Position numbers and translations under genes: made by a program
Shown: piece by piece, positions 3,505 through 38,702 of the stretch
How positions within the stretch are numbered: the stretch's first letter is position 1
Layout of the letters: the number at the start of each line of letters is the position of its first letter
Assembly: GCA_001599295.1 (NCBI GenBank)
Contig: BCGN01000008.1
Span: forward strand, 1 to 64,000
Reading direction: 5' to 3'
Length of the DNA: 64,000 nt
Source: Sporopachydermia quercuum
Lineage: Eukaryota > Ascomycota > Sporopachydermiomycetes > Sporopachydermiales > Sporopachydermiaceae
Notes under the pieces: model-generated
Databases searched by the model: none
What the model was told of the DNA's origin: nothing
The model's input: only the letters and a program-made list of their open reading frames with translations

Positions 3505-4899
3505 ATGATGAATGATAAATTGCTCTGGGAGGGGAAAATGCTCTGGAATGGTACGAAAGATACAATGCTTTTCTATAATCTAGAAATCGTTCAACAACCA
3601 AGTCATGCCCGTGCAATTGGAAACACCATCAAATGTAAGTTTTACGCTGTTTGTGCTTCGTAGTTTTCTTCGAAACTGTAGAAATACCACCAAGATTCAA
3701 AAGTCAGAAACTAACTCAATCTTATAGTTTCTGGTAGACGAGTTATTGACCCCCAACCAGTAATAAAATTGCAAATATTTTTAAAGAAGCGTCAAGAATT
3801 GGAGAATATGTAAGTTTTTTTCTTCTACTAACCCTAAGGATCTACCACTGAAAATACAAAGATCTTTGAACTGTGGTACAGCATTTTCTTCCCTCATAAA
3901 TTTCGTTCGTGATTAGTCTAACAAGAAATTGAGTGAAGAACAGACAAGTACCCTGGTATTTTTGCTTTAACCGTGTCATTGATGAAGAAAACAAGTTACT
4001 TAGCTCATAATGTTAAACAGAAGACAACTGTGGCAAAACGCCAAATAACAGAGAACTGGGACAGGAGTAGAAATTTAGTAGGAGAGCAAACAGCAACAGG
4101 TATGATTGTTAATAAGGGAATTCACTCTACGAATCCAATGATTGCTTTTCTATTGGGAGATCTTTGTGTAAGACAGGAAGCAATATATCATCTCAAGTTT
4201 GATTTGTTAGAGTTTCAGTTGGAAGGAGCGTGCTCCAATGTTTATTACCGAGGCACAATTTATTCCGAAGAGTTCACAACTTATCCGGTAACTGATTTTC
4301 CCGGTTTTGTGCCCACCACGCCTTTAGTTCGAGAGTTAGCTGGATATGGCTTCAAAGTCAGAATAAGAAATTTCGCAACGGTTAAAAAGGATTATATGGA
4401 GCAAACCAGGAAGCATAATACGGATTGCCCACCCAATTTAATCACTTCCTCAAATACAGGTAAAGTAGTTAAACAACGTTTGTCAAACTATAGTCTCAAT
4501 AAGCTCGGGTCGAGCACCTCTCGTTATCTGACATACAGTTCAAATGAAAACAGAGCAAACAACATTACGCGAGTATCAATTCTATCTACAGGTGAGAACA
4601 ATACATTTACAAACAACCAAACAACAATTGCAGAATACCAGATGAAAATTGAACATGATACACTCATAACACCAACCTCTGAAGTTGAGACAGAAACTGC
4701 TTCTCTGCCTTGTACCATAGATATGTATCAAAATGATTATCATTCCCATGATAGATATATTTATTTTCAATCAGATCACTACATAAATCCTGGTTACGAT
4801 CTAAACAAGTTAGATTCGAGTTATCAATTAGAGCTATATGATCGTTCCTTAACACCATTGATTGATGATAAAGAAATATTTTGGGATATGCAGAGTTAA
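3505..4899 (+). CDS. Velvet-domain transcriptional regulator (VosA/VelB/VelC type)
   Basis: Three exons, 3505-3634, 3728-3809 and 3939-4899, give 390 residues. Donors are GTAAGT and branch sites ACTAAC and TCTAAC. Residues 22-71 read LFYNLEIVQQPSHARAIG, then SGRRVIDPQPVIKLQIF. This matches the velvet start, where a (V/I)-x-Q-Q-P-x-x-A-R-x-x-G motif precedes R-R-x-x-D-P-P-P-(V/I)-x-L. Residues 144-151 (GDLCVRQE) followed by YHLKFDLLEF match the F-x-D-L-S-V-R-x-E-G-x-Y-R-L-x-F-x-L-F-E core. Residues 191-214 (FPGF, then LVRELAGYGFKVRIR) match the end of the fold. The tail (217-390) is Asn/Thr/Ser-rich. Velvet proteins bind DNA with an NF-kappaB-like fold and control development and secondary metabolism in filamentous fungi. 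The start is uncertain: in-frame ATGs lie at 3505, 3508 and 3538. Which subfamily it belongs to I cannot say. Confidence 0.85.
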
Positions 4900-5502: not shown

Positions 5503-5595
5503 GAAATATATTGGTATGAAGAATAGTACTGTATGTAGTTTTTTTTACTGATAGGTTGCACTTCTGAGAGCATTGCGTGAAATAGTTCTTTCAAA

Positions 5596-7305
5596 ATGAG
5601 GATCACCTCAGACAAGTGGCTATATATTATTGTTTCTTATACCTTATCTCATTATCATGAGTCGTCCATAAAAATCATAGCGTTTATATGCTCAATGTTT
5701 TGTTGTTTATGTGCCGGTTCAATAACATTATTCTCCATATATGTTCCTTCTTTCATGGAAGACTTGATGTACACCCAGTTGCAGATCAACATTATATCAA
5801 TGAGTGCAGAATTAGGAATGTATTTACCGGTTCCTTTTCTTGGATATTTAGCTGATATAAAATCTCCATCTATTTTAGCCTTATTATCAGGATTATTTTT
5901 GGTTCCCGGTTACCTGCTTGGTGCTTATACATACTTTTTGAGTAGCAATTGGCAGTTTTCATCTTCAGTGTTAAAGCATTCAGCCAACATAATGGCGGTA
6001 TCAATGGGATTTGTTGGAACCGGGACTTCATGTTTATATTTCTGTTCAATGTTAACTTGTGCTAAAACTTTTCCCAGTTATAAATCTTTATCTATATCTG
6101 CACCAGTAGCTGCATTTGGTCTTTCTTCGTTATTGGAAGCTCAATTGTTGACCAGGTTTTTCAGAACTTCTGTATCAAATACGGATCTATCTACAGGGTC
6201 TGTTGATGTGAAACATGCTTTTATGTTTTTTGCTATTCTTTATTTTATAACTGCAATCTTTGGATACATTAGCACCAAGATTATTATCTTCGAAAAGAAG
6301 TTTTGGCATGAACAAAATAAAAGACTTCTAGACCTGTCAAGTAACCAAACTGTTGAGCCATTATCGCCCGATGAGACTGTCCATTTGATCAACGATGAAC
6401 CAATCAATGATTATGTTGAACCTGGAAATGGGTTTTTAACACCTGTTGAAAGAACATCTAGTGAGCTTAGGGCACTTGAAATTTCTCATAGTCACAAGTT
6501 GATAAAGAGATTTTTTAGAGATCCAACAATGTGGCTCTTTCTTTTATGCTTCTTAACAATACTTAGTCCCCTAGAGATGTTTCTGAATAATATTGGATCT
6601 ATCGTCATGATATTCGATGATTCACCTTTTAACTCTTCCCAATTGGCATCCACGCATGTCTCTATACACGCATCAAGCTCAACTATCACAAGGTTAGCTA
6701 TCGCTGGGACTGCAGATTATCTTTCTAAACCTGGGAAGTCAATTTTTTCTTTGAGACCCATATCAAGGATTATTTTACTCTTAGTATTCGTTTCCTTAGT
6801 AATGACGGTATACTTTTTGTTGGCATCTGGTGTACTTACTCCAATAGCACCTAGTACATCCTCTATGATTTCTTCAAAATATCTTTTCATTGTTTCAGCA
6901 ACATCGGGAGCAGCATATGGTGCAGTTTTTACCTTGTTTCCTTCAATAGTGGCATTTGTTTGGGGAATTGAGATCTTGGGGACGTCATGGGGTGCTTTCA
7001 CCATTGCTCCTGCCATAGGCAGCGTGATATATGGCTTACTTTATGCTAAATCATTTGACGCTGTATGTAAGCTTCCAGATGGTTATGATTATGGCTTGAA
7101 TTGCATAAGTCCAACGTTTTATTTTTCTGCAATTGGCATGCTGATAGCTATTGGTATTATTTTACTCATATGGCAACTCAATTGGGTTAAAAGGAAAGCA
7201 TTGTTACGTCACAGTGATCTGATCTACGTTGACACGGATACTGTTGATCAAAATGAGGATGATGATATTATTGTAGATTTGGAAAGAACAATTTCTTTCT
7301 TTTGA
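5596..7305 (+). CDS. MCH1: Major facilitator transporter, MCH1-like (monocarboxylate transporter homologue)
   Basis: This intronless 569-residue membrane protein begins with a helix rich in Cys/Ala, followed by LFSIYVPSFMEDLMYTQLQI and MYLPVPFLGYLADI. The latter is the pattern of fungal Mch1 (TLFSLY..., LGxYLxxPxLGxxAD). About twelve hydrophobic segments are visible: roughly six in residues 20-230, an acidic central loop (about 240-300), and six in 310-540. FVGTGTSCLYFCSMLTCAKTFP is another family-typical stretch in helix 4-5. Mch1 of S. cerevisiae is a vacuolar-membrane transporter of the monocarboxylate family, but monocarboxylate uptake has not been shown for it, so the substrate here is unknown. 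The acidic C-terminal tail (DTDTVDQNEDDD) is cytosolic in such proteins. It converges on RRP3. Confidence 0.85.
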   Translation: MRITSDKWLYIIVSYTLSHYHESSIKIIAFICSMFCCLCAGSITLFSIYVPSFMEDLMYTQLQINIISMSAELGMYLPVPFLGYLADIKSPSILALLSGLFLVPGYLLGAYTYFLSSNWQFSSSVLKHSANIMAVSMGFVGTGTSCLYFCSMLTCAKTFPSYKSLSISAPVAAFGLSSLLEAQLLTRFFRTSVSNTDLSTGSVDVKHAFMFFAILYFITAIFGYISTKIIIFEKKFWHEQNKRLLDLSSNQTVEPLSPDETVHLINDEPINDYVEPGNGFLTPVERTSSELRALEISHSHKLIKRFFRDPTMWLFLLCFLTILSPLEMFLNNIGSIVMIFDDSPFNSSQLASTHVSIHASSSTITRLAIAGTADYLSKPGKSIFSLRPISRIILLLVFVSLVMTVYFLLASGVLTPIAPSTSSMISSKYLFIVSATSGAAYGAVFTLFPSIVAFVWGIEILGTSWGAFTIAPAIGSVIYGLLYAKSFDAVCKLPDGYDYGLNCISPTFYFSAIGMLIAIGIILLIWQLNWVKRKALLRHSDLIYVDTDTVDQNEDDDIIVDLERTISFF

Positions 7306-7786: not shown

Positions 7787-9415
7787 TCATAATTCTTCTT
7801 TATCCATATCATCTTTACTATGTCTTCCTCTTTTTCCCCTATTATTCCCTTTCCCATGAGCTTCTTTCATTTGATAAATGGCCTGTCGTTGAGCTTCCCC
7901 CACTCTTTCACTCAGGAGCATTACTTCATCTTTATCTATTTCGTATTCAGGTAGCTTTTTATTCATAACACTCTCAATACGTAAATACAACTCTAAATCA
8001 TATTGTGTGACCAAGGAAATGGATTTACCAGCTCTCCCTGCACGAGCCGTACGGCCAACTCTATGAATATAAGCCTTTGAATCAGTAGGAATGTCATAGT
8101 TAATCACTACATCTACTAAAGGAATATCCAAACCACGGGCAGCCACATCTGTGGCAATTAAAATCTGACGTGTGCCGGATTTAAATTTGTTCAAAGCACC
8201 TAAACGGGCTGATTGAGACAGTTGACCATTCAGTGGAATTGCTGGAAATCCCAAGGATCTAGCTATTATCGATAACCTTTGTGAGTCGTTCACAGTTCTT
8301 GTGAACACGATTATCGAATTTCCCATCAACTCATTCAGGAGATAAATCAAATAAGTGTCCTTGTGCTTGAAAGGGAAGAATATGTACGATTGTAATAAAG
8401 TATCAACAGTAGAAAACTTGTCAGAAACTGCTATACATATAGGATTTGATAGCGAAGCTCGTTGAAGCTTTTCAACTTTCGAGGTCATAGTAGCTGAAAA
8501 CAAGTAAGTAGTTCTCTCTTTTGGTATTGCTCGTAAAATCTTGTCAAGTGATGGACCAAAATCCATATCCAATAACCTATCGGCTTCATCCATAACTAAA
8601 AATTTCAAAGTACGTAATGAAAACCCCTTAGTATGTTCCAAATGATCCATCAATCGACCAGGAGTAGCAACAATAATATGTGGTTTCTTGGAGAGAGAAA
8701 GTGCTTGTTGCATCATATCCATTCCACCAACTATTACAGTACATATTAAGCCAATGAGACTGCCTAACGATTCAAATTGTTCAGCTATTTGGTAAGCCAA
8801 CTCTCTTGTAGGAGCTAAAACGCATCCAAATAAAGGTGAAGGACTATTCCATAGTGCTTGGATAATAGGTAATGCAAATGCTGCTGTTTTACCAGACCCT
8901 GTTTGAGCAATGCCTATGATATCTTTTCCTTGTAAAGCATGAGGAATAGATTGGCACTGAATGGCTGTTGGCTTTTTGTAATTCAATTGTTCACACGCCT
9001 TGCACAAAGCAGGAATAAGCCCCAGCTCTGCAAATGTTTCGGCTTCATGTACAGGTTCTGCAGATTTGTCCTCACCATCACTGTTTATAGACTTCGCCTT
9101 ATTTTCACCGTATGTATCTCCGTTATTTTTTTCTTCATCGGTTTTAGTCTCTGAAATGTTAGTGTTATCATCATCGGACGCTTCGTTCTGTTCTTCAACT
9201 CCGTATTCTGTTTTTTCTTGTTTTAGTAGTACCTCTTCTTCTTCACGTTGTCCATCATCTTCCTGTTTCGCCTTCTTAGCTTTTTCTTTCAGTCTATCTA
9301 TCTGCTCACTAAGCAGATTCTTCTCTATGTTACTGCCCTTAATTCCTTTCTTCAATTTGTTCTTTACCTTCTTCACTTTAGAGGTTGAACCTTTAATCTT
9401 TAGTTGAATTGCCAT
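7787..9415 (-). CDS. RRP3: DEAD-box ATP-dependent RNA helicase Rrp3 (18S rRNA processing)
   Basis: The 542-residue protein has all DEAD-box motifs: a Q motif near 128-157 (F-x-x-L-G-L, PTAIQ), AQTGSGKT at 170-177, PTRELA at 202-207, TPGR at 251-254, DEAD at 276-279, SAT at 307-309, and [11 protein letters not shown] in the second RecA domain. The phrases [14 protein letters not shown] and [20 protein letters not shown] are characteristic of Rrp3/DDX47 rather than other helicases. A basic and then acidic N-terminal extension (1-125) and a Lys/Arg-rich tail frame the core. Rrp3 acts in the nucleolus in early pre-18S processing. It is transcribed divergently from SSF1, another ribosome-biogenesis gene, with 491 bp between the starts. 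The ATG is at 9413-9415 with no sign of an intron. Confidence 0.95.
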
Positions 9416-9906
9416 CTTGGAAATACTGAGTGAAAAATAACAGTAAAAAAGAATGCAAAAGAAACTTTCACGAACTTCTTTTTGAGATGAATATATTAAG
9501 ATGAGTTCGTTCAGTTGCTGATCTTTGATCCCTTATGACTTGATCTGATAAGTTTTCTTATCATCTCAAATAATAGAAAATGTTTTTCACGAATTTCTTT
9601 GCAAAAAGTTTAATACTATGGTGTTTGCCTTTTAGGTAATTAGACCCTGGACTTGGACTCTACTTGAATAGGCTAGTTTATTTATGATTATTTCATCCTT
9701 TATTATACTTTCCTGCTTCCTATTAATATAAAATTTTTTTAATGGTTGGGATAAGACATACAAATTCTCTATCATGTTGCAAGAAGACTATCTTAGAATC
9801 CGATGACAAGTCAATAGTTAAGAAAATATTTGTTTCAGTGAGATAATTACAAATCAGTCATTTGATTTTATTGAACTGGTGAACTAATAAGAACCGTTTA
9901 GTGATA
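9416..9906. promoter_or_regulatory. Shared divergent promoter of RRP3 and SSF1
   Basis: This 491-bp region lies between two divergent ribosome-biogenesis genes. GATGAG occurs at 9500-9505, GAGATGA at 9484-9490 and its complement TCATCTC at 9561-9567. These resemble the core of the yeast PAC element (GATGAG). This is a resemblance only; the full PAC consensus is not present. Confidence 0.4.
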
Positions 9907-23519: not shown

Positions 23520-24872
23520 ATGGTGCAAGTTTTGCTTTTACTAGCCCAAAGGCATGAAAGCTTTCGTATGGCAGAGCTTGAATCATTGAGTGAGTATCAT
23601 GGCCTTAATATAGATTTTTCATCTCACGACAAGACGGTAAGTTTATCAAACCTTTGAGATAATTATTAGAACACTTCATGTTAGCTAACACTTAGTTAGA
23701 GTCCGTTTCTGAAAATTGAAGTCGAAAAGCTTGAAGATGCACAGCTATTGATATCGCGATCGGTACTTACAAGAGCTGCTTATGAACTTTGGGCTGAAGC
23801 TGACTCTTATGATGAACTACACCAAAAACTGAAATCAATACCTGAAGTTTGGAGAAGATATAAGTCAAGTGATATATCATTCAAATTCGAAGTTCTTGGC
23901 TTCCAAGGATCTCGAACGAAAGAAGAGCAACTTGAGATAATAGAGTCATTTTCTTACTTGGACTTTCAAGGACCTATAAGAATGAAGAATGCTGATCATA
24001 CCTTTTCACTTCTAGAAAATTACGAATTTAAATGTGACTTTAGTACAACTCTTACTCACATATTCTTTGGACGCTTTATTTCGGAATCGGGACGATCGGC
24101 GATTGATAAATATGACTTGAAACGTCGTCGTTATATAGGTACTACATCATTTGAAGCAGAATTGGCTCTTGTAACGTGCAACATAGGGCTCACTGGTCCA
24201 ACTCGTTTGATGTATGATCCATTTGCTGGAACAGGTAGTTTCCTTATTGCTGGAGGTCATTTGGGATCATTAACGATGGGTTCAGATATTGATCCCCGAA
24301 TGGTAAGAGGAAAAGGCAAAGCAACTATTTCAAGTAATTTCACGCAATATGGTATGCCAGAAAAGTTCTTGGATGTTTTGACAATGGATTTTACCCATGC
24401 AGCTTTTCGAGATGATTTCAAGTTTGATGCCATTGTGTGCGATCCACCTTATGGAGTACGAGAAGGATTAAAAGTTTTGGGAACAAAGAATCCTGAAAGG
24501 TTTGTTGGGAAAGAAGATGTTGTCCTAGAAGGAGAGAAAGCATATCTACGAAGAGATTACATAGCACCGAAAAAACCTTACGAACTGGGTGCATTGTTGG
24601 ATGATTTATTGGAATTTGCTGCTCAAAAGCTATTTGTTGGATGCAGATTATGCTTTTGGATGCCTACAGCTAATGATGATTTCACGGCTACCGATATTCC
24701 AAAACATAGGAATCTTGAGCTACTGTATGAATGTGATCAAGAATTCAACAAATGGTCAAGGAGGTTACTGGTTTATGTTCGAAGAGAAGCTGAATGGCAG
24801 GGAGAAGATGTGAAAGCAGATGGGAAAAAGAATTCTAACTTCAGAACAAAATATTTTCGTAAGTTCACTTGA
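23520..24872 (+). CDS. TRM11: tRNA (guanine-10-N2) methyltransferase catalytic subunit Trm11
   Basis: Two exons, 23520-23636 and 23700-24872, give 429 residues. The 63-nt intron has donor GTAAGT, branch GCTAAC and acceptor TAG, and skips an in-frame stop. Joining gives a THUMP-region start ending SPFLKIEVEKLEDAQLL followed by ISRSVLTRAAYELWAEA, as in Trm11. The Rossmann methyltransferase part has DPFAGTGSF (about 212-220) for AdoMet binding and the catalytic DPPYGVREG (about 287-295). With the Trm112 partner it makes m2G10 in tRNA in the cytoplasm. Length agrees with S. cerevisiae Trm11 (433 aa). The CTG codon in SPFL lies at a conserved Leu position, supporting the standard code. Confidence 0.95.
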
Positions 24873-25122
24873 ACTAAAGAGCAAAACAAGAAGCTTCGCA
24901 AATTTACAAAGGATAATAATGCCTCAATGTACTTATAACTGCAAATATGTGACCTGTAGGAATATTTATCACTTTATACAATTAACTAAAATCTTTCATA
25001 TAAATTTAAACAATAATATATTTCAATTACTTCCCTCAATCAAACGATTGAACCTACCCAAGCCAAACCAACCCTGCCGTGAATCCAAACAATATACCAT
25101 AACTATTAATGGCTACATTTCA

Positions 25123-25934
25123 TTAACAACTGCACATATTGTAATAGCTTTGAGACTCATTGCTATTTTTCTTCAAATCAATTACAACTGTATTATCATT
25201 GTTTCTATTCTTTTCAAGTATTCCTGCACCAACCACATTCTGCACCAAGTGGAAAAACAAATGATTGATGTCATTAGTATTTTTAGCAGTGACTTCATAA
25301 AACCCCGCAATGTTAATTTTCCTTTTCTCTAACTCAGCGCGATAATTTTCAATCATTTCTGGGGTTACTTGTCGTTCATCTGTCTTATCTCGCTTACTTC
25401 CAACAATAAATCTGACAGAATTATCTTGAGGACAATGGAGAAGACTTTCATTTAGCCAATAATCGACATCTTTAAACGATTCTGTATTACAAAGATCATA
25501 GACTAATAGAATTCCTTGCGCTTTGTTGTAAACTGATGATGTTACTGTCCTATATCTTTCCTGACCTGCCGTATCCTATATCGATGTTAGTATAATGATT
25601 TAACTGCCTAGGGAGAATTGAACATCGTTAAGCATACGTACCCAAAGGACTGTTTTGTATGTATTGCCATTTATATTGATCTTTTTCACTCTCAAATCTA
25701 CACCTATCGTTGAACGTGTGCTCCCTTCATCAAAAATATTGTCACAATACTTCAGTAACAATGCTGATTTCCCCACACCAGCAGCTCCTAAAACGTTACT
25801 TGTGTTAGTCAGAATCCTAAAATCCAAAACATCAATTATACTATATCGTTACTCAAAAGACGAAGTAAAGGACGCAACGTACCTATCACCAACAATTTCA
25901 CCGTCTGAACATCCTGTTTAGAATCCAATGACAT
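25123..25934 (-). CDS. Rab-family small GTPase, Rab18-like
   Basis: Three exons on the minus strand, 25934-25883, 25787-25642 and 25575-25123, give 216 residues. Both donors are GTACGT; branch sites are GACTAAC and TACTAAC. The joined P-loop reads VIGAAGVGKSALLLKYC. Switch I has STIGVDLRV, switch II WDTAGQERYRT, and the protein ends in the double-geranylgeranylation motif CSC. The combination GVDLRVKKI, AQGILLVYD and YWLNE recalls Rab18 more than Ypt1 or Sec4. Rab18 acts in ER and lipid-droplet dynamics and is lost from S. cerevisiae. The G4 motif, usually NKxD, is here SKRD, an Asn-to-Ser change in a guanine-specificity residue. The subfamily call is tentative. It converges on TRM11 with 250 bp between. 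Confidence 0.85.
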
Positions 25935-27081
25935 TGTTGTGGCTCATAAGAATATGAAAACTATGGTTTGAACTTCCTGAGTGCACTGATAAAAGCAAAC
26001 TTCTTTATATAGAATATATCTTCTCAATATACTGCTCTTGATGAATATTTTTCTTATTGTTCCACCATACAAGATATTCAATATACTATCGTATAACTGA
26101 GTAATGTTGAACTGTCGATTGGTGTCAATATTCGCCTCCCTGAATCGACAATTGCATTGAAAGTTCTAGCAATAGTAACTCTTTAATTCAATCAAGATCT
26201 TCAATGTGTATACTTCTGTACCCTTTCAATTTCCTCGTTTCATGAGCAACAGCTACAACTTGAATGGATAGAGAATGTTGACTAATTAGTGTAATGGATA
26301 CAATTTTTAATGATTTCACAGTAAATGACCAACTTGTGTGTTGATGTGATGACTTTGCTGCAGTATTGAAATCGTGACCTAATCAATATTCGTGTTTATG
26401 AATCCAACCAAACAAAAATAAAAATTCCTGAACGTTTATCAGAAGTAAATAAGAATTGTCTGTGACACAATCATTCCTTATCGCATAGACAGTTAACTTC
26501 ATAGTCTTGTTATCTATTAGCATTGTCACTCCTCAATAACTAAAGTTTGTGTCCTTTGCCTCGTTATAGTTTGACCTATGTAAGAATTTAATGATTATGC
26601 TATCCATACTAAAATGATAGTACTTGGTGGGTGATACTTGAGATAATCCTCTGAGCATGATGAGCTTGACGAAAACTTTAAATATCGCTAACCCCGCCAT
26701 TTTCGGCCCGAAATGTAGGATTCTGTTGTTTGAGGCTAACCTTCTCCCTCGGTTTTGATGCCCTCCCTTTTTCTATTTCATTAAGATATAGAACATCGGG
26801 AATTAAGAACATTTCGTTTTGATTTTGTTCAATTCAAGCTGAAAATCATCGTTGCTTGTTGGTGTGTCTTCATGAAATAGCTGATAACCTCTTGATCCAA
26901 GCGTGTGCTATTTGTTTCCAGTCAATTCTTACTCTCAATTTATTTACATTTCATTGGACAGAGTGTTTGTTTGATCTGTTCAACAGAAAGAGCCTGAATA
27001 AATTCAATCTATGTTATTAGTTCTGTGAAAGCGAAACCTAAGATTACTTCTTCAATTAATTGCAATTAAAAGCTNCTGAAA
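25935..27081. other. Divergent intergenic region, Rab and acyl-CoA dehydrogenase genes
   Basis: No gene is supported. A 13-bp palindrome TTTCGGCCCGAAA lies at 26701-26713 and CCTCGG at 26747-26752, in a locally GC-richer patch about 330-380 bp before the ATG at 27082. Confidence 0.5.
26701..26752. promoter_or_regulatory. Palindrome and CCTCGG motif upstream of the 3-hydroxyacyl-CoA dehydrogenase gene
   Basis: TTTCGGCCCGAAA is a 13-bp palindrome of CGG/CCG half-sites, as Zn2Cys6 factors often bind. CCTCGG at 26747 is the core recognised by the fatty-acid regulators FarA/FarB of Aspergillus and their relatives. The assignment is by motif likeness only. Confidence 0.35.
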
Positions 27082-28002
27082 ATGATTGGTCTCCGAACAT
27101 TCAATAGAAGAATGTTCTCAACATCATCAGTACTTAGCGATATCATTAAGCTTACCGTTCTAGGAGCAGGTCAGATGGGATTGGGTATAGCATTGACAGC
27201 TGCAAACAAAGCAGGTGTTGAGGTTGATGTTTTTGATAACTCTGAAGCATCTTTGACTAATGGGTTGAAGTTCATGGATAAACTCCTAGCAAAAGATGTT
27301 GATAAGGGTAGAATAACTGCTGAACATGCTGATAAAGTAAAAGGGCTGGTCAAAATATCACAATCATTAGAAACTTCTGTTTCAACATCTGACATTTTGA
27401 TTGAAGCAGTTCCAGAAATTCCTCAATTGAAGTTCGACATTTTCACTCAATTGGGTGAACTCAATAAGCAAAGCGGTAGGAATACAATTCTGGCGACAAA
27501 TACCTCATCTATTTCTATTACCAAAATAGCCTCATTCGCTAAAGGTTCTGAACATCGTGTTCTATCAGCTCATTTTATGAACCCTGTACCAGTTCAGAAG
27601 GGCGTAGAAATTATTACTGGTTTGCAAACCTCTCCTGAGACTTTAGCTGATACTTTGGAATTTGTCAAGAGAATGGGAAAGATACCTTCAATTTCTAAGG
27701 ATAGCCCAGGATTTCTTGCAAACAGAATCCTTCTCCCGTATATTAATGAAGCCATTATTTGTTTAGAAACTGGCGTTGGTACCAAAGAGGATATTGATAA
27801 TATTATGAAGAATGGTTGTGCTATGCCAATGGGACCTTTAGCTCTAGCTGACTTCATAGGATTGGATACCTGTTTGGCTATCATGAAGGTCTTGCATTCT
27901 GATACTGGTGATTCCAAGTATAGACCTTCAATTCTTTTACAGAAGATGGTAGACGCTGGATATTCAGGAAAGAAATCAGGAAAAGGATTTTATGAGTATT
28001 AA
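27082..28002 (+). CDS. 3-hydroxyacyl-CoA dehydrogenase, probably mitochondrial
   Basis: The 306-residue, single-exon protein starts with a Met/Arg/Ser/Thr-rich leader (MIGLRTFNRRMFSTSS) lacking acids, which is a likely mitochondrial presequence. The Rossmann motif is LGAGQMGLGIA (GxGxxG about 28-33). ATNTSSISI and SAHFMNPVP, with the catalytic His, follow. The C-terminal domain has GFLANRILLPYINEA and GCAMPMGPLALADFIGLDTC, and ends GKKSGKGFYEY, all hallmarks of HAD/3-hydroxybutyryl-CoA dehydrogenases. It oxidises L-3-hydroxyacyl-CoA with NAD+ in beta-oxidation. S. cerevisiae lacks this monofunctional enzyme and oxidises fatty acids only in peroxisomes, so this yeast may retain a mitochondrial branch. 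The stop is 187 bp before the RPS19 stop on the other strand. Confidence 0.92.
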   Translation: MIGLRTFNRRMFSTSSVLSDIIKLTVLGAGQMGLGIALTAANKAGVEVDVFDNSEASLTNGLKFMDKLLAKDVDKGRITAEHADKVKGLVKISQSLETSVSTSDILIEAVPEIPQLKFDIFTQLGELNKQSGRNTILATNTSSISITKIASFAKGSEHRVLSAHFMNPVPVQKGVEIITGLQTSPETLADTLEFVKRMGKIPSISKDSPGFLANRILLPYINEAIICLETGVGTKEDIDNIMKNGCAMPMGPLALADFIGLDTCLAIMKVLHSDTGDSKYRPSILLQKMVDAGYSGKKSGKGFYEY

Positions 28003-28189
28003 ATGATATTGATTATAGGTAAATAGAAGCACGTTTACATTCCATACGAGCAGCAAAAGATAAAATGACAATCATTGGGAACTTGATGGTCGTAAATCAA
28101 ACTGAATAATTAATTCGGTACTACATTCATAAATCAATAGATATTAATTAATAAAAAGAAATCATGTATCAATTAGTTTTAAACATAAT

Positions 28190-29132
28190 TTACTCTTCTC
28201 TTTCTTGTTCAAGAGTTTGAGCAGCAATACGATCTAAATCTCTTTGACCGTTTTCGGAGATTCTTCTACCCTTGTTAGCTTCTTCAACAATTCCAATCTT
28301 TTCCAAAGATTGTAAAACCTTTCTGTTAACAGATCCAGAAGCGTTTCTGTGATGTGAAGGTCTGAAACCACGGTTGATAGCACCACCATAAAGCTTGTTC
28401 AATTTACCGACACCCACGGATTTTCTCAAGTAGATGTGTCTAGCAATAGAAGCAGCACGCTTGTAGAACCAGAGTTCAGCTTCTTGGGGGGGAAGTTCGT
28501 TACCAGAAGAGGTCTTGACCAATTCAACGTAACCGGGAACTTCGAGCTTACCTTGTCTTTGCAAGAACAAAGCGTAAGCGTTAATAAAGCTCTGAGCAGG
28601 AACGTCTCTATAATTTTGTTAGAATAACCGAGTAGATAAGAATTAGAAGAGGTGAAGAGGTGAAGAGAAGTATTGTGAGCAGCTTTCAATAATATTGTAC
28701 TTTCATTTGCGACTGACATGCTATTGAATATCCAAATAAGAGAGCTTCCTTGCTGCATTAAGCTTTCTGTAACAATACTAACCATNTTGACTTCGTAATC
28801 TACAGACGCTTGTCGACATACGTACTGGTGCGAGTGACACGTCTCTCGTTTTACTTTGCTTTTCTTAAGCTGTATCCTTATCCTGTCGTTACAGTTCCTT
28901 GACAAAAAAACAACCAATGATCATGGCTGTTTATTGGCAATTAGAATTATTTTGCTCGAATTAAAATGCTCATATCAATTCAAGAATTGTTGCTATTGTG
29001 CTCTCAAGTCGATTATTACATATATTTATGCNCCTCCATCCTCACCAACCATCACTAAATCACCACGGAACGATCTCTTCTCCCAATCTTGCTGATTTCC
29101 TTTTGAACATACCTAACGGAAACACCAACCAT
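28190..29132 (-). CDS. RPS19: 40S ribosomal protein S19 (eS19)
   Basis: Two exons on the minus strand, 29132-29113 (20 nt) and 28607-28190, give 145 residues. Exon 1 encodes MVGVSVR, joined to DVPAQSFINAYALFLQRQGK, the invariant eS19 start. PGYVELVKTSSGNELPP, WFYKRAASIARHIYLR, GVGKLNKLYGG and GFRPSHH are all family signatures. The 505-nt intron has donor GTATGT and branch TCTAAC 10 nt before the acceptor. eS19 sits in the head of the small subunit and is needed for pre-18S 3' processing. The intron holds two ambiguous bases (28786, 29032). The gene diverges from the first F-box gene. Confidence 0.97.
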
Positions 29133-29942
29133 CTTGAATGTGCTATATGTGTAATTAGATGTGTGATGATCTACTCTGAACAAATTCTTGGCAATTGTTC
29201 ATAGGTGAATGATCTACAGTTAATATGTCAAGGCAGATAAAGTGAAATATCTATCGTTAAAGCAAACCTCGTCTGGTGTAGTCTGAGTATCTGCTGGAGT
29301 TTGCGTCGCATTCCTACCCGTCCAACACACTGTGAGTCATCCTTCTATTAATCCTTCTTTTGGGCGGAGTCTTTGAACTTTAAAATGCCTAAAATTACTG
29401 CGTAAAATAGTACNCTATGTATTTATCAGTACTCATCAAACCTAAAAACGTGACGTTTTAAAATACTATAGTCACGTGGATTCTATAAGGGTAATGAAGC
29501 CAAAGTATCGTCAGCCTTTATATAGGGGGTTAATAATAAAAGAGGAAATTGTGATAAGGGGATAAGACTATCTCTATACAAATCAGACACAAGCAAACAT
29601 TAATGGAGTTTTGTCTTTTGTAGATGATCTGTGAACAATCTATATAGTGGTACTTCTTGGAGACTATCTAACTATCTGTTACTCCATTTGCTTTATATAT
29701 CTTTTTGTTTTACTCAGCATGACAGAAATACACTAAGAAATCAATGAAACAAACTATTGGAAGACGCCCTTAGATAACCCACTCATAATTTAATTCATTG
29801 TATTGTCAACGGGGAGTAGAGTTTTGAAGAAACTATATGTGACATTTTTTATTAAAATATAGAATTTAATTTATAAAACGTTGTCAAATCTGTTATTGGC
29901 ATACAGAGTGCCTTGGTTAGTTGGTATAATTTTGATGCCTAA
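29133..29942. other. Divergent intergenic region, RPS19 and F-box gene
   Basis: RPS19 promoter and first F-box 5' region. A GC-richer stretch at about 29270-29340 contains TTGCGT (29301-29306). TCACGTGG lies near 29473, and one ambiguous base at 29414. No gene seen. Confidence 0.5.
29301..29306 (-). promoter_or_regulatory. ACGCAA element upstream of RPS19
   Basis: ACGCAA on the coding strand, about 169 bp before the ATG, within GACGCAA. It matches elements before RPL31 and RPL18. Confidence 0.4.
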
Positions 29943-31940
29943 ATGAGTGAAGGACCACTGGCTTCCCGATCTGGGATAGAACTGTTGGATCTTCCTGATG
30001 AGCTGTTAACCAAGATCGTTGAAAATCTTGAGATTGGACATGACCAAAATGCGAACAAGGGATTTCAGAGTGACATAAGGAATTTATCACTAACTTGTAG
30101 GAAATTGAGACTTCTATGTCTGAGGCCATTGTTTAAGATTATTCGTGTATTGGAAAGTTCTACAANCATTCACCCCTATGCCCATGATGGTCATGAAAAT
30201 GTTACTACAGTATCAAATCCCAGTAGTTCAAATGTTTCTATTGATTCAGAAAATAGAGGCAGTTATCAATATCTCGATGAACTCCACTACCACCAAGACG
30301 AAGCATGTAGTATGGAGTTTGACTTGGCAGATAACAGTTCTGATGTACCTATTGACGATCTCGTGAATGGATTAGAGCAGATAGAAAACAGACCAATCCC
30401 AAATATCACCAAATTTGTTGCAACCATTGAAACGAGTATATTTATTCAGCGGCAAACTGGAAAACAAAGATCTAAGTCGCATCTTGCGGATGAATATCAG
30501 NACCCGTACGATAATTGCAGCGTCAATATGCTCCGTTTNACAGAGAAATTGATCATTCAAAGAGTTGATGGTGAATTGTTGCTTTTGCTGAAGGATAACG
30601 CCCCGAAGTTGTATTTCTTATCTGTTGATGATCCATCTNTGGCAGATGATTCTTTTCAACTCTTCACCGAATTGTCTTTGGTGACACCTGATATATCCAA
30701 TTTGTTGTCTAACATCCGAAGATTAGAGATCAAGTGTAGTGAAAGGAGAATATTGACTACAGCAATGTTTTTCTTGAACTTGTCCAAAAATATTCGCCAT
30801 TTGGACTTATTTTTTACTCATACCGAGTTTCCTTCTAATTTTTTTCAGAANCTTTTGATTTGTGATCATAACAGAATGAATGAGGCTCACCCACAGTTTA
30901 TTTTCAATAAACAATCATTTAATCAGATTGAAACATTGGGCCTAATGTGCTCCAGAAAATCATTTGTAAACCTTTTCGGGTTTTTCTGTGAGGTGCTTAG
31001 TTATTTTGACTTCAGTAATTTGGTTAACTTATCGGTTCATAAAAGCACTAAAGACTTTGATAAGGTGTCATATTATGAGGTATATAATTATTTGGTTGAT
31101 CTGAACTATTTCTTAAGAACTCTCAGAAACAAGTTAAAGTTAAGATTCTTGCAATTAGATTGGGATACCATATTTAAGTCTGAGCTCACTTCTAGTACAA
31201 CCATCAGAAATGTGGAAGTTCTACAAATAATCGAGTATGCAGCATTCTGTCCATTCACTAATTTAGTATCAACCAGCTTAGCAGCCTTTCTTGAATCGAT
31301 CACATCGCTCAGTATGGTTTCTCTTATATATGGAGCTCAAACTGTTAGAACCCAGCACAGTCTTGTTATTCAGAATATGAAATCTCTTCTTGAAACAGTA
31401 GATGTATCAAAAGTACCATTGTTGAGATATGCCATGGTTGAACAAGGATGGAATGTCCTTGAAGAATGGTTCTTTAATCTCAATCAAGGTGTGAAATACC
31501 TGGAAACNGNAAGAGAAAGCGAAAATCCTAAAGTTTCAGAAGGGAGAGACTTCAAAAAGTTCTTTGAGCTATGGACTAAGTCTCCTCTGTCCTCAACACA
31601 TCGTGTAAGTAAGACAGGCACAAATGCGTTGAGTATCACATCATGTTGTTCTTCTATCCAACTCAAAGCAGTATGTAGTAGNTTTCAAGCATATCGAGTT
31701 CCTCAGATGTTTGAGCTTCGAAAATGTGAGTCATATGAAACCGGAGAAGTGTCAAGTATGTCCCCACATCCACAGCTTTCATCTAATTTGGGTCATCGAA
31801 TGGCTAATTCCAAGAAAGTTATTTTGAGTATGAGCCTTGAAGATTGCATAGAAAATGATGACTTCAGATACNGCAATCAATCTTGTTGGAACAATAGGTT
31901 GGGATGGTCATTTATCCTTACCGCTGATGAATTAATGTAA
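29943..31940 (+). CDS. F-box protein with leucine-rich-like body (first of a tandem pair)
   Basis: The 665-residue frame starts MSEGPLASRSGIELLDLPDE. An F-box lies at about residues 13-65: LLDLPDELLTKIVENL, then LSLTCRKLRLLCLRPLFKII. The body is rich in Leu and Ile, with segments such as NIRRLEIKCS and NIRHLDLFFTH that look like irregular leucine-rich repeats. F-box proteins bind Skp1 and bring substrates to SCF ubiquitin ligases; RBX1, the RING subunit of SCF, is also encoded in this window. I recognise no specific orthologue. The frame contains nine ambiguous bases, over a third of those in the window. No stop or frameshift is seen. It resembles the gene at 33136 in layout but the two are strongly diverged. 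Confidence 0.75.
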   Translation: MSEGPLASRSGIELLDLPDELLTKIVENLEIGHDQNANKGFQSDIRNLSLTCRKLRLLCLRPLFKIIRVLESSTXIHPYAHDGHENVTTVSNPSSSNVSIDSENRGSYQYLDELHYHQDEACSMEFDLADNSSDVPIDDLVNGLEQIENRPIPNITKFVATIETSIFIQRQTGKQRSKSHLADEYQXPYDNCSVNMLRXTEKLIIQRVDGELLLLLKDNAPKLYFLSVDDPSXADDSFQLFTELSLVTPDISNLLSNIRRLEIKCSERRILTTAMFFLNLSKNIRHLDLFFTHTEFPSNFFQXLLICDHNRMNEAHPQFIFNKQSFNQIETLGLMCSRKSFVNLFGFFCEVLSYFDFSNLVNLSVHKSTKDFDKVSYYEVYNYLVDLNYFLRTLRNKLKLRFLQLDWDTIFKSELTSSTTIRNVEVLQIIEYAAFCPFTNLVSTSLAAFLESITSLSMVSLIYGAQTVRTQHSLVIQNMKSLLETVDVSKVPLLRYAMVEQGWNVLEEWFFNLNQGVKYLEXXRESENPKVSEGRDFKKFFELWTKSPLSSTHRVSKTGTNALSITSCCSSIQLKAVCSXFQAYRVPQMFELRKCESYETGEVSSMSPHPQLSSNLGHRMANSKKVILSMSLEDCIENDDFRYXNQSCWNNRLGWSFILTADELM

Positions 31941-33135
31941 TGATTACCGGTTTTTTTTTGTAACTTGTTAATTGATCAGTTCATATGGTATTTATGTGAA
32001 GCAAGAAAACTGAATTTCAAGATTATGGAAGAGAACTTCTGTGACTAGAAATGGGAAGTAAGTCACAATGATCTTGACATGTTGTTTTATAAGATAATCA
32101 CACCTTATATCCAACCATACAACAAGTACATTTCATCTTTTTCTCAATCAAAACTCTGACGATACAATAGTTTTCTACCGAATGAATAGAATTTTGACAC
32201 AACACAGCGACCCTGTTTCGCTACATATATAACCAATAATCTACTTCTTTCATCATTCTTTGAAAGTACACATATCCTTATATCAATATTTCTGTCGAAT
32301 CATCATTTCATCCTATAATAACTCAATACACATCTATATGTAAGATTGTCTTGTATCGATTTTAAGAACATCAGTGATATGAATAAATAAATAAAGCCAA
32401 ATTTAGTCACAGGAACTTTATATTATTTTGACTTTCACGTCCATTAATTTCAGCAAAAAGCAGAGTATAAAACCAACTTTCATTAAAATTCCTGGCGACA
32501 ATAACTTGAACATGTACAGAGACAGAGATTTGGCTAATGTATATCTACCTACCTACTGAGATATGCGTTATTTCCTTCTATACATAAGCTGGAGAAGTCT
32601 GGCTCAACTAACTCTTGATAGTTTTGACTCGCGAGCAAAACACAGAGAAAGCCACGTGATGCGATAAGGTTCTTACCCCAGATTTANCTAACTAATAATC
32701 TACAAAAGAATACTAATAAATTAAATAACCCTAGAATTCAATCGTTTTCAGAACCAGGAGAGNTTAGTTGGACTTATCTCGACATGATTATACTAGTTGA
32801 GAAAAAACTGTTAGAGATAAGGATAGAGAATAGGAAATAATAAAAGTCAGAAACTAGATATATGCGATTTGGTACACATCATTTCTTGATCACCGAAACA
32901 TTCTAACCAGATTTAATTAGCTTACACAGCTTTCTGGTAAGAGAGATTGTTGAAACTTTGAGTGTATGCAGTGTTCAGAGTTGAAAAAGTGGTTGCTCAA
33001 TAGGATCTAATCTATTGAATAACTATTCACAGTTTTAAGAATAAGACGAATCATCCTTGGGGAAATCACCATAAAAAGCCTAGATTTGAAATTCTGACTA
33101 ACAAACAGCTTCTTTATAGACAACTATTTGTTAAA
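31941..33135. other. Intergenic between the two F-box genes
   Basis: 1.2 kb with no supported gene. It contains GCCACGTGA near 32653 and ambiguous bases at 32687 and 32763. No residual copy of either F-box gene was recognised. Confidence 0.5.
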
Positions 33136-34752
33136 ATGAATCATTCGGGCACTTCAGACACAGATAGGATCACAATATCAGAGTCAAAAGAGTTGAAAGT
33201 ATCCAATTCTGATAGTAGTAATGAACGTGGTAGTTGTATATTAGATTTACCTATTGAGNTGATCAGGGAAATTCTGGAATTAACGCTTGATGCTAATTCA
33301 ATAGCAGAATTGTCCTCAACTTGCAAAAGATTCCGACAAACACTTCTGCCTGTACAATTCTCATCAGTAAGACTATCAATAGTCAAGGATGTGGTGCTAG
33401 ATAATACAATATCGATTAGAGATAATTCAAGAATCTTTGTACAGTGCTTGAAGAAGAATGAAGAATTAGGATTACCATCAATTGCTTCCTGCATTAGAGC
33501 TATAGATATACCATGCGGTTGCGATGAAGAGACAATAGATTACCTCTGTCAAAAACTTAATCTTTTGGCGGTAAGAATAGTTAATTTCAAGCATCAGCCG
33601 ATTGTAAATAAATTTCTTGAACATAGTCTACACACAGTGCAGATAGCGACTGATGACGGTGACATAAGAATTCTAAATAATTTAACTAACTTGAAGAGGA
33701 TAGATATATTTGTTGGAANTAATAGTTTGGATATAGACAAGTTTGGAAACCTACCCATTTCATCGTACGATCCGGAAACATTTCTATTCTCTAATATCAA
33801 AATCTTGTCAGTTAGTGGAAATATTGATAATCAACCAAAAGTCCTTAGATATACGGCCAATCTCCTGAGGTCTGGTTTTAAGAGACTGAAATTTTTGGCT
33901 ATAGGTCCTTCTTACTCTTCATACTTTCTTTCAACGCGGAAGAATGATGGAAACACGTCTATTATATCGCGAGAGTGTGCTTCTGTATTGTGTGATGTGC
34001 TGGAACAGATACAGCGCAAGGACTACATCCGAACTTTGCAACTGAATGATTTTTTGATTCGAGGATTGTCAATTGTTTTCCTAGCGTCAGTTGGTAACAC
34101 TTCCGGAGTACAATTGTTACAAATAGTGAGTTTTGATCGTGTAAGACTATCTTTGCTTCTAAAAAGGGAAGTCTACATTGCTTTTTTTGGTCTCTTTCCA
34201 AATCTAAGGGCATGTTCAATAATATTATCGTCAAGAGTTTCTACAGAAATAGATGAAACATTCAATCACCCTTTTACTTATACTCGCATCAAACAAGAGC
34301 ATGATATCTATGGTTTTTTCGAAAGTTCAAGAATTGAATGCTCCAAACTTCAAACAATTACAGTTGAAGAAGGATTCCATGAACTACAAGATAATGACCA
34401 CATGTATAAAATTCATAATAGTTCTTTATCACCACCCACAGAGCGAAACTTCCTGATGCATGAATATTGTGATCCACGATATAGTGCAATGAGAATTATT
34501 GAGTTACAATCTTCGATAGCTACGTCTAGAAGTGTTTCATTTATCTTATACAGGACTCCTAGAATGTTCTCTATCAAACACAAATCTCAACCAGAAACTA
34601 TCATTGGCAGGTCTAATTTCATAATAGATATCTCAAAACATTGTGAAGGCAAAGAATTCACATTTGCTGATGGTTCTAAGCTGAATTATAATTTTTTATG
34701 GTCATTTATCGATTCAGCTGCCTGTTTGAACGTCTTAGAGAGTCTCAGGTAA
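33136..34752 (+). CDS. F-box protein, second of a tandem pair
   Basis: The 538-residue frame starts MNHSGTSDTDRITISESKEL. The F-box is at about 33-80: CILDLPIE, IREILELTLDANSIAELSS, TCKRFRQTLLPVQFSSVRL. The rest has repeating Leu/Ile-rich strands such as LNNLTNLKRIDIFV and NIKILSVSGNIDN, consistent with degenerate leucine-rich repeats. The likely role is substrate selection for an SCF ligase; the substrate is unknown. It lies on the same strand as the first F-box gene, 1.2 kb downstream, suggesting an old tandem duplication. Two ambiguous bases (33259, 33719) fall in it, one within the F-box. Its stop is 178 bp from the RPL18 stop on the other strand. Confidence 0.72.
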   Translation: MNHSGTSDTDRITISESKELKVSNSDSSNERGSCILDLPIEXIREILELTLDANSIAELSSTCKRFRQTLLPVQFSSVRLSIVKDVVLDNTISIRDNSRIFVQCLKKNEELGLPSIASCIRAIDIPCGCDEETIDYLCQKLNLLAVRIVNFKHQPIVNKFLEHSLHTVQIATDDGDIRILNNLTNLKRIDIFVGXNSLDIDKFGNLPISSYDPETFLFSNIKILSVSGNIDNQPKVLRYTANLLRSGFKRLKFLAIGPSYSSYFLSTRKNDGNTSIISRECASVLCDVLEQIQRKDYIRTLQLNDFLIRGLSIVFLASVGNTSGVQLLQIVSFDRVRLSLLLKREVYIAFFGLFPNLRACSIILSSRVSTEIDETFNHPFTYTRIKQEHDIYGFFESSRIECSKLQTITVEEGFHELQDNDHMYKIHNSSLSPPTERNFLMHEYCDPRYSAMRIIELQSSIATSRSVSFILYRTPRMFSIKHKSQPETIIGRSNFIIDISKHCEGKEFTFADGSKLNYNFLWSFIDSAACLNVLESLR

Positions 34753-34930
34753 AGATATTTTGTTGTAATCGATTGGATCTGGCTTTCCAATAATAGAAAT
34801 ACTTGATTCCAAACAATAAACTTTCCATTTGATTCATCGAAATACTACAATTCCCATATCATATACAAATTATTTCAATATATTTTGAATTATTCCATTA
34901 GAAGCAACTATAAACACTAGCTTCTAACGT

Positions 34931-35861
34931 TTAGACCTTGAAAGCCTTACTCTTTCTTCTACCTCTAGCTCTTTCAAACTTACGTCCCTTAGACATAACC
35001 TTAGGAGCCTTACCCTTGTGAGGACCGAAACCGAAGTGTCTGACAGCTTCTCTGGAATTTCTAGGACCTCTGATGAAAAGAGTGTTAGCACCAGTTGGGG
35101 CTCTGACAGCTAATTGATCAAGAGTGATGGTTTCACCACCGGCCTTGATAATTCTAGCTTTAGCACCAGCAGTGAATCTAAGAGCGGCAACAGTGACCTT
35201 AGGAACGTCAACAATTCTGTTATCATCGGTGACAGTACCAATGACAACAACAGTTTTTTCAGAGGCACCAGGTTGCTTAACAGCCTGGGCTATTCTGGAT
35301 AATGAAACAGGAGGTCTGTTGATCTTGGAAAGGAAAAGGTTTCTCAAGACAACTTTGTTGAATGGAGCATCAGTACGACCTAAAATGACGTTAGTAAATC
35401 ATCCTATTGAAAATAGATATTGAAGTGTCACTACTCAAACTGAACTGCTAGGTCAAGATTATGAATCACAAAAAACACAAGTTTCACTGGCAATATTGAT
35501 TGATGAGATTATTCAATCCATCCCTCTAAATATATTGAAAAGAGTCCGCTTTGAAGGAGATCTTCCTGCACCATACTCTTCCTGGTTGAATCGAACACGA
35601 CTTCTTAGTTGGCTGAATCATTCTTCTCTAAAAGACTCCTCATAGATACCAAATTACAACGACGATTCCAAATACTGAATACTTTTCACTTCAATACCCT
35701 TACAAAGCAGGAATGTTACTGTGGATCCTCTTTTAAGTAAAACACATACGAGCCAAGAAACGGTAGAGCTTGACCAAAAGCTTCAAGTAGACATTGTCTG
35801 ACTTGGGAGCCTCACGGTGTCCACTTCTTTGATGTTGTTTAGTAGTTTTATCAATACCCAT
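34931..35861 (-). CDS. RPL18: 60S ribosomal protein L18 (eL18)
   Basis: Two exons on the minus strand, 35861-35750 and 35379-34931, give 186 residues, exactly the yeast eL18 length. Exon 1 encodes [20 protein letters not shown] through FLA; splicing restores [12 protein letters not shown] and then [14 protein letters not shown]. The 370-nt intron has donor GTATGT and branch [42 protein letters not shown] and the basic end [16 protein letters not shown] are family signatures. eL18 is a structural large-subunit protein. ACGCAA lies 174 bp upstream of the ATG. It diverges from the prefoldin gene. Confidence 0.97.
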
Positions 35862-36506
35862 CTTTGATGATTGAAATAAATCTGCTGGTTATTGAACTAG
35901 CTAAATTAAACAAAACAGATATTCAACTATTATTTCAAATGAATGCTATGCAAGAAAGGAAGATAAACTATTCGAGTAGTGTGAAGATTACATTCTCTAT
36001 GGTTCTGAGAATGAAAGAATGCCATGCACTCTCCTTGCGTCTGTTCCAAGTTTCTGCGTGGATTCCTCTGTTTCCTGCAACTTTCTTTCTTACAACTATG
36101 TACTCTTCCATAATAGAAAAGTACACAGAATATCTATCTGTTCTGTAATGTTAGGACCGTTTTATGAGAAGCCCTTAATAGTATCACGTGATATAGGAAT
36201 TTTGTCAGAAGTTTATTTTACATCTCAATAAAGAAATGAAATAGCGAGTCGAGATATGATGTTGTTCTTCTAGTTTTTACATGTCATATCATGGTGACAC
36301 TTTTCAACATTAAAACAGTAAACTGTACCAAGATCGGAGTTTCTACAAACCAAATCGATTACTATTGTATACCAGAGCGAAGAACAAAAGGTCAACAAGC
36401 TCATCTTTTATTGAAAGAAATATTGGGGATATTATTCTCAGAAATATTTTAGTATTTGGGGATTTGATTTGTTGAAATCCCTAGTAGTCACAGATAGTAT
36501 TTCACA
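35862..36506. other. Divergent intergenic region, RPL18 and PAC10
   Basis: No gene supported. It contains TTGCGT at 36035-36040 and TCACGTGA around 36184-36191. Confidence 0.5.
36035..36040 (-). promoter_or_regulatory. ACGCAA element upstream of RPL18
   Basis: ACGCAA on the coding strand, 174 bp before the ATG, within GACGCAA, as at RPS19. A second related core (GCGTG) follows at 36056. Confidence 0.4.
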
Positions 36507-37505
36507 ATGTCTGGTACAAGTAACAAGTAAGGACCACAGTCAAGGCCAGTGTTTTCCAAGTGNGCTTTTGTTCTATTTCCTCTTCTCGAAATAGGACCTT
36601 GCTAAATATACTAACTATTATATAAGAAATGACGGTTCATATTCCAACCCGCGTGGAATACCACAAGCACCTTTTGTTGAGAAGGTAGAAGAATACGTCA
36701 AGTCTCCCGAAGATGCTGAATCAGTGTTGGCTTCGTTCCAAGAGATGTTGCAGTAAGTTAAGACTCTATTTTTTCATTCAGAGGAGCTATGAACGAGGTA
36801 GTACGGTATTTTTCCGAGTTGTATGATGATAGTAACTAACTTACAAATGATAGAAAGTATAAGTTCATGGTATGCAAAGTAGAATGAAGATGTTGTGTTA
36901 TGTAAATTTATTTGATATTGAATGAGGTCTGAAGCTAACAAGTTTCATCAGGAATCTGGTAAATTAAATTCTGTCAATAGTTTAAAACAAAAACTCCCTG
37001 AAATAAGGAAAACATTGGAAATGGTGAAGTTTCTAGACTCTAAGAAAGTATGTATAAACCTTTGGGGAAGAATGTCGACACTTGTTCGTTATTAACAATT
37101 TATTCAGGACACCGACGAAGAGATAACAGCCAATTACGAACTAAATGATACATTGTACACAGCTGCCACTGTGAAGCCTACTGAGACAGTTTATTTATGG
37201 TTAGGTGTAAGTTGATATGATATTTGTTCAATGCTGTTGAAGCTTTTTAGATAACTGAATAATCTAACTAGATATATAAGGCTAATGTTATGTTGGAATA
37301 TCCAATACAGGAAGCAATTGATCTGTTGAATAGCAAAATACAATCGGCTGAGAAGAATCTAAAGAATGCGGAGGAAGATTTGGAATTTTTGAGAGAGAAT
37401 ATAACAACCATGGAAGTGAATACAGCAAGGCTTTATAATTGGGATGTTCAACGAAGAAGAGAACTGCGGGAAGCTGAGGTTGCTGCACAAACAGTTAAGG
37501 CTTAG
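36507..37505 (+). CDS. PAC10: Prefoldin subunit 3 (Pac10/Gim2), six exons
   Basis: Exons 36507-36526, 36627-36752, 36854-36869, 36952-37047, 37108-37206 and 37281-37505 give 193 residues. Exon 3 is only 16 nt and supplies most of QKYKFM, which is invariant in prefoldin 3/VBP1; without it the frame breaks. All introns have GT donors and a CTAAC-like site before the acceptor (for example AACTAAC, GCTAAC, TTAAC). The product has IPQAPFVEKVEEYV, then LPEIRKTLEMVKFLDSKK, then VYLWLGANVMLEYP. The last stretch is LEFLRENITTMEVNTARLYN followed by WDVQRRR. Two long coiled coils flank a beta hairpin pair, as in alpha-type prefoldins. Prefoldin delivers nascent actin and tubulin to the CCT chaperonin. 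Confidence 0.95.
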
Positions 37506-37714
37506 AAGATTGTGTGGCACTCTGAATACTGAATACATGTTTGAAATAAACCCGGAGATGTGGAAAGAAAGATAATAAAACAGATATATATGAAATATTA
37601 ATTAAGGTGCTCAAACCCCGTTTATATTTACATTACGCCTTTAATTACCACCAACCATATTTACCAAGTTGCACTCTTTACTCAAAATATATAGCCATTA
37701 TCATCTTACAAAAG

Positions 37715-38702
37715 TCATCTTCTGACTGTATCGATCAGTTGAGAGAATAGATTGGACTCTCTATCCCATCCTTCTTCTTCATTAGTTTCCCCATCAGGCT
37801 GAACTTCGTTACCCAGTGCGTCCGAAGATGTCTGAGGTTCTTCTTGATGACCTTCAGTGAGCTTTCTCCAAAATGGCACTCTCCAATATTTACCAGGGAT
37901 TACCTCTCTTGTTACCAGTATCCCTAAAGTGAACCCAATCCAACTGGATACCAGTGATGACGGTATAGTGCTTAAAGCTATTTGGGCAACGCATATAAAG
38001 AAGAACACTCTATCCGTCAATATCAGCTTGGATTCTGATGAAGCATTCCATTGGACTTCAAATCGATAAATAGATGGTATCAAATCATAATACTGAACAA
38101 ATAATGCATATATTATACTTGTAGGCCCGCTTGTTATATGACCAAATTTATCGTTCAGATTTGAAGGAAGACATATCTGAAACACAAACAGCACACTGAA
38201 TGTCGTTATTATTGTGTAAACGTATATAACAATAACATAAGACTGAAACCAGAAAAGTTATTCTCGTTAGTAGTTAGGCCCAAAAGAAAAGAAGGGACTA
38301 CAGTCACTGGTATTTAAAACCACCAAAGTATACATACAATAAATTTATGAGAACCCATAATCCTTTCGAGGACCCTGTAATTGTAAAGCAGTATTGTGGC
38401 AAACAATACTTCCGATTCATTGTTATAAACGTTTTGAAACAGTAACAATCTCCACCATTGGTCTAATTACTAGTTAGTTCTCAAGTTCATAGATCATTTT
38501 ATTTATATCGCTAGCATTCTAACCATCCCCAGTCCCATCCAACCTATCACATACTCCATGTCCAAATATATGGTTGCAGTTTCAAATCAAACAAATATTT
38601 CACTCCAAACAGTGAAACTATCACTGGAGCACACACTGTTATATAAACAATATATCTAGAGCAGGGTGTTCCTCCAAATCCTTTCGGGGTATAAGCAAAC
38701 AT
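37715..38702 (-). CDS. DSC2: Rhomboid-like membrane protein, Dsc2-type (Golgi/endosomal Dsc ubiquitin ligase)
   Basis: Three exons on the minus strand, 38702-38555, 38462-38338 and 38242-37715, give 266 residues. Donors are GTATGT, branches AACTAAC and TACTAAC. The product has GFGGTPCSRYIVYITV, then FDLKLQPYIWTWNQWWRLLL, where Q-x-W-R is the rhomboid-superfamily L1 entry, and VLFATILLYNYRVLERIMGS. Several membrane helices follow, with LSTIPSSLVSSWIGFTLG late. No catalytic GxSG or later His is seen, as expected for a pseudoprotease. Dsc2/UBAC2-type proteins are scaffolds of membrane ubiquitin ligases. The acidic C-terminal tail is only about 55 residues and shows no obvious UBA domain, unlike the Dsc2 I know. 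It could instead be a related UBAC2/derlin-like scaffold. Confidence 0.7.

Follow-up and report, generated by a model that had tools for sequence, protein, structure and literature searches.

A predicted three-exon velvet-family gene in a scaffold of likely budding-yeast origin

The gene at positions 3505-4899 of the 64-kb stretch of DNA analysed here (the window) very probably encodes an intact velvet transcription regulator, inherited within a Saccharomycotina lineage in which CTG means leucine and a fair number of introns persist. Most yeasts lack velvet proteins, which in moulds govern development and secondary metabolism. An earlier note on this DNA had joined three exons into one gene with a 390-residue product bearing the ordered velvet motifs, and our analysis bears out this structure: the predicted splicing leaves an unbroken 390-residue frame with canonical splice sites, and the motifs named in the note are present in the spliced product. 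The parts of the gene are as follows.

3505..3634, + strand: exon 1, residues 1-43 and base 1 of codon 44; carries VQQPSHARAIG (residues 29-39) and is followed by the donor GTAAGT.
3635..3727, + strand: intron 1, 93 nt, GTAAGT ... AACTAAC ... TAG; interrupts the codons of loop A.
3728..3809, + strand: exon 2, coding for RRVIDPQPVIKL; aligns with the velvet N-terminal block of VeA, VosA and VelB.
3810..3938, + strand: intron 2, 129 nt, GTAAGT ... GTCTAAC ... AAG.
3939..4899, + strand: exon 3, with GDLCVRQE, YHLKF, FPGF, KVRIR and an S/T/N-rich tail of 174 residues; ends with the stop codon (4897-4899).
3568..4371, + strand: genomic span of the velvet domain including the introns, approximately residues 22-215, as delimited from the profile and PDB alignments.
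3619..3741, + strand: loop A equivalent, residues 39-48 (GNTIKFSGRR), with intron 1 inside it; matched by eye with VosA K37/K39/R41/K42.

In its frame, no other ATG lies between the upstream stop and the ATG at 3505. Intron 1 falls after base 1 of codon 44, and CTAAC branch-like sites lie 12 and 16 nt upstream of the ends of introns 1 and 2, respectively. Working by hand through the AG dinucleotides at 3938, 3943 and 3948 as acceptors for intron 2, we found that only 3938 keeps the frame, which is broken by the other two; an acceptor at 3987 was also rejected, as it requires a different frame for exon 2 and loses part of the velvet domain. Exon 3 stays open for 320 codons, against a maximum of 138 codons among 500 shuffles of its bases. 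Over 82 ungapped block columns picked by eye, the query was shuffled 20,000 times, and not once did the score against VosA, VeA or VelB rise to the observed value. Together, these two sets of shuffles exclude a chance origin of the open frame and of the similarity.

A search with the Pfam velvet profile (PF11754), which the earlier note had proposed as a check, returned a strong match to the spliced product in two stretches (E 2.3e-32; 113.3 bits, curated cut-off 25). Five PDB sequences were found at E values up to 1, of which the three significant ones were all velvet chains (VosA, 1.5e-9; VeA, 3.5e-8; VelB, 9.5e-7), the next lying at E 0.48. Both halves of the velvet domain are present in the profile and PDB alignments, the N-terminal half with QQP..AR..G and RR..DP.P and the C-terminal half with DL.VR, FPG and RIR. 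VQQPSHARAIG and RRVIDPQPVIKL can both be read in the 390-residue product, as can GDLCVRQE (residues 144-151), YHLKF (154-158), FPGF (191-194) and KVRIR (210-214). Judged by these profile and PDB matches, the gene belongs to the velvet family, as first proposed, and we infer a Rel-homology-like beta-sandwich fold for its product. An AlphaFold prediction of exon 3 alone from a single sequence (mean pLDDT 28.5) was uninformative on the fold, and searches of prokaryote and viral collections with the exon 3 frame as query, which gave 9 and 4 pattern matches with none confirmed, are uninformative for yeasts.

Published accounts of velvet genes in budding yeasts conflict. Statements in one paper (PMC5309816) have them absent from budding yeasts, and a 2026 review continues to describe Saccharomycotina as lacking them (PMC13006574), whereas 12 velvet-domain genes were reported in 2016 in the genome of Saccharomycopsis fibuligera (PMC5106798) and Wang 2024 finds such genes in a portion of the Saccharomycotina genomes and gives a tree of their proteins (PMC10845976). 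The latter study lists 31 Sac-VeA and 32 Sac-Tap-VelB proteins; on its inference, the ancestor of Saccharomycotina had a velvet gene, which most yeasts later lost (PMC10845976). In light of the 2016 and 2024 reports, the absence that the earlier note gave for Saccharomyces, Candida and Yarrowia is too strong a premise when extended to budding yeasts as a whole; such genes are already published, and the present one adds one more to a set that is rare in yeasts. Its likeness to the Saccharomycotina velvet proteins, including those of S. fibuligera, lies in being a velvet-domain gene of a budding yeast, the comparison being by description only. The basal yeast Geotrichum candidum is reported to be intron-rich and to have kept many ancestral genes, and the main text of that paper nowhere uses the word "velvet" (PMC4479816). 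Our literature search turned up no study on the function of any Saccharomycotina velvet protein, which is not proof of absence.

Within the velvet family the product leans slightly towards VeA. The comparison was made over the 82 ungapped columns, picked by eye from HMMER alignments, with VeA, VelB and VosA as references; no VelC chain was among the PDB alignments used, and the references held no yeast protein. Identity over this block was 40 for VeA, 37 for VelB and 33 for VosA, and VeA was the best reference in 1152 of 2000 column bootstraps (VelB, 546; VosA, 302), a weak lead; the whole-query PDB score slightly prefers VosA (40.7 bits vs 36.3 for VeA). Akin to the Aspergillus-type VeA (PDB 9i2s_A), with which it shares the velvet domain and the top identity (40/82), the query has one lysine and an RR pair in a loop A of about the same length, although its stretch from LLE to the following strand is shorter. 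As for A. nidulans VosA (4n6q_A), it is the best whole-query PDB match and has in common with the query the GDL motif and a short stretch ahead of the YSEEF strand, yet its block identity is the lowest (33/82) and its loop A carries three lysines and one arginine. A. nidulans VelB (4n6r_B) resembles the query in block identity (37/82) and in the single lysine and RR pair of loop A, but is described as carrying a 99-residue insertion within the velvet domain (PMC3876986). By eye in the PDB alignment, an insertion of that size is absent from the query, which exceeds VosA by only about 19 residues in the stretch from the N-terminal block to the GDL block.

From each of the three Aspergillus paralogues the query is at least as distant as the paralogues are from one another. 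It is identical to each at 33-40 of the 82 columns, as compared to 39-45 of 82 among the paralogues, and its substitution scores are 179-200 against the three, which score 213-248 among themselves. Relaxed constraint could be another reading of this greater distance.

The earlier note had left open whether the gene was retained from an ancestor or acquired, and of these two possibilities retention fits better than recent transfer. The GC content of the velvet coding sequence is 0.366, within the range of 0.348-0.408 for other window ORFs (12 compared of the 27 listed), and its GC3 of 0.33 lies within the 0.284-0.351 of the same 12 ORFs. The NNCTAAC branch sites of its introns match those of seven other window introns, which were picked by eye from 31 candidate rows by the criterion that the upstream frame closes within the intron; across these seven and the two velvet introns the donors are GTAAGT, GTACGT or GTATGT. 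Since composition and introns appear native to the window and no single Aspergillus paralogue is nearer to the query than to the other paralogues, vertical retention is favoured over recent transfer; the gene would then be a remnant of a mould-like ancestor. That the yeast lineage first lost its velvet genes and later gained this one horizontally from a filamentous ascomycete is quite unlikely: the patchy occurrence of velvet genes across Saccharomycotina described by Wang 2024 (PMC10845976) speaks for it, and one gene within 64 kb does not reveal the full velvet set of the genome, but the native composition and introns (which an old transfer would show identically) and the distances to the three paralogues speak against it.

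Three marker proteins of the window (eL18, Med7 and SSF1) were compared with PDB chains, the species of which were partly assigned from entry codes and molecule names. For eL18, the top seven PDB sequences scored 260-255 bits, followed by 224, 219, 211 and 210. Five of these seven we take to be from Candida albicans, Kluyveromyces lactis (KLLA names) and S. cerevisiae, 9spj and 6woo being unplaced, and the lower chains are presumably from Chaetomium (224), Neurospora (219) and S. pombe (211 and 210). For Med7, a top score of 197 compares with 123 and 121, chains that we assign to S. cerevisiae, S. pombe and Chaetomium, respectively; for SSF1 the sole three scores listed were 313, 279 and 185, which we believe to be those of S. 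cerevisiae, Chaetomium and human chains. With the species assigned in this way, all three housekeeping markers are thus nearest to budding-yeast chains, in keeping with the budding-yeast look attributed to the window in the earlier note.

The genetic code was approached through nine CTG codons in four proteins, read by eye from the first-shown PDB alignment (Med7, 4; RRP3, 1; 3-hydroxyacyl-CoA dehydrogenase, 2; SSF1, 2; eL18 has no CTG). Their partner residues were Leu in six cases and Ile, Val and Arg in one each; in this test for CTG reassignment, none of the nine stood on a Ser or Ala column. As CTG mostly faces Leu and never Ser or Ala, yeasts with reassigned CTG, including Saccharomycopsis, are unlikely sources. 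In Saccharomycopsis CTG is read as Ser, unlike the Leu of this window, and an affinity with that genus, raised by its 12 velvet genes, was set aside on this ground. The tRNA and Rfam scans of the 64-kb window gave no match, and hence no tRNA to fix the code. On these sequence comparisons the scaffold is likely to be from Saccharomycotina outside the CTG-reassigned groups, and the intron pattern together with the markers fits an early-branching, intron-retaining yeast. An origin from another AT-rich ascomycete, for instance of the Taphrinomycotina, in which a velvet gene would cause less surprise, is very unlikely: the intron density and the 3-hydroxyacyl-CoA dehydrogenase are unlike Saccharomyces, but all three markers are nearest to budding-yeast chains, and S. 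pombe is far behind in the two (eL18 and Med7) for which an S. pombe chain was recognised.

For the velvet gene, a function may be proposed from its loop A and from its Aspergillus relatives. Residues K37, K39, R41 and K42 in loop A of VosA matter for DNA binding, and velvet proteins function as homo- and heterodimers (PMC3876986). The query loop A has the basic residues K43, R47 and R48, and in the alignments one lysine and the RR pair are kept as in VeA and VelB; VosA K37 is without a clear counterpart in the query, VeA and VelB likewise having a single loop A lysine. The first arginine of the RAR motif is a histidine (H34). The C-terminal tail of 174 residues is rich in S, T and N, and its last 60 residues have a net charge of -8. 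Given the loop A equivalent and the VosA literature, the product is most likely, by analogy, a dimeric DNA-binding developmental regulator. It would dimerise via the velvet domain and contact DNA via loop A, as its Aspergillus relatives do; the S/T/N-rich tail, acidic at its end, might recruit partners or activate transcription; and the regulator may let external signals adjust a developmental switch, for example hyphal growth or sporulation. That the open frame is instead a decaying remnant, its product dead as a regulator, is most improbable: the loop A with just one lysine, the HAR in place of RAR and the greater distance from the three references than these have from one another would suit it, but 390 codons run without stop or frameshift, the splice sites are canonical, the velvet motifs are present and a single loop A lysine is found in VeA and VelB as well.

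Each velvet-bearing yeast offers a chance to probe the role of the ancestral regulator before the light and metabolite circuits of moulds, and the present case adds a well-formed velvet gene in a CTG-leucine, intron-bearing yeast. More speculatively, and with only a modest chance of being right, this VeA-leaning regulator, perhaps the sole one or without its usual VelB and LaeA partners, may have been rewired to govern a yeast trait of the hyphal-growth or sporulation type; in that case, nature would here have provided a minimal velvet system.

Of the 27 ORFs listed for the window, 24 were scanned with Pfam, as was the spliced velvet protein, the short ORFs 24814-25332 and 28426-28920 being left out, and 19 of the 24 gave matches at E 0.001 or better, including two F-box matches below the curated cut-offs. 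The neighbours of the velvet gene are the following.

2-2476, + strand: S/T/V-rich open frame of 824 residues, upstream of the velvet gene and running off the window start.
5581-7305: MFS transporter, downstream of the velvet gene.
7787-9532, - strand: DEAD-box helicase, named RRP3 in the earlier note, downstream of the velvet gene; best PDB match DDX47.

The upstream frame, which has no Pfam match, looks from its sequence like a cell-wall adhesin, with a hydrophobic C-terminus and a GC content of 43% in the first 2 kb. Further along, the frame at 27070-28002 (+) encodes a 3-hydroxyacyl/3-hydroxybutyryl-CoA dehydrogenase (PF02737, 1.7e-46; PF00725, 2.5e-34), the N-terminus of which resembles a mitochondrial presequence. 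In the PDB, the enzyme matches the 3-hydroxybutyryl-CoA dehydrogenase 9fbd best (255 bits), L-3-hydroxyacyl-CoA dehydrogenase chains scoring approximately 180. An enzyme of the 3-hydroxybutyryl-CoA dehydrogenase type is unusual for Saccharomyces-type yeasts. The two weak F-box proteins, both below the Pfam cut-offs, are adjacent (29943-31940 and 33019-34752, +) and their mutual similarity is slight (34% over 59 residues, E 0.014). An NT-C2 domain protein (PF10358, 1.9e-24) is encoded at 60716-61882 (+), a family known from filamentous fungi and animals rather than from Saccharomyces. Finally, the window contains 25 single N bases, 20 of them at 27075-39027, which look like ambiguous or heterozygous positions rather than gaps.
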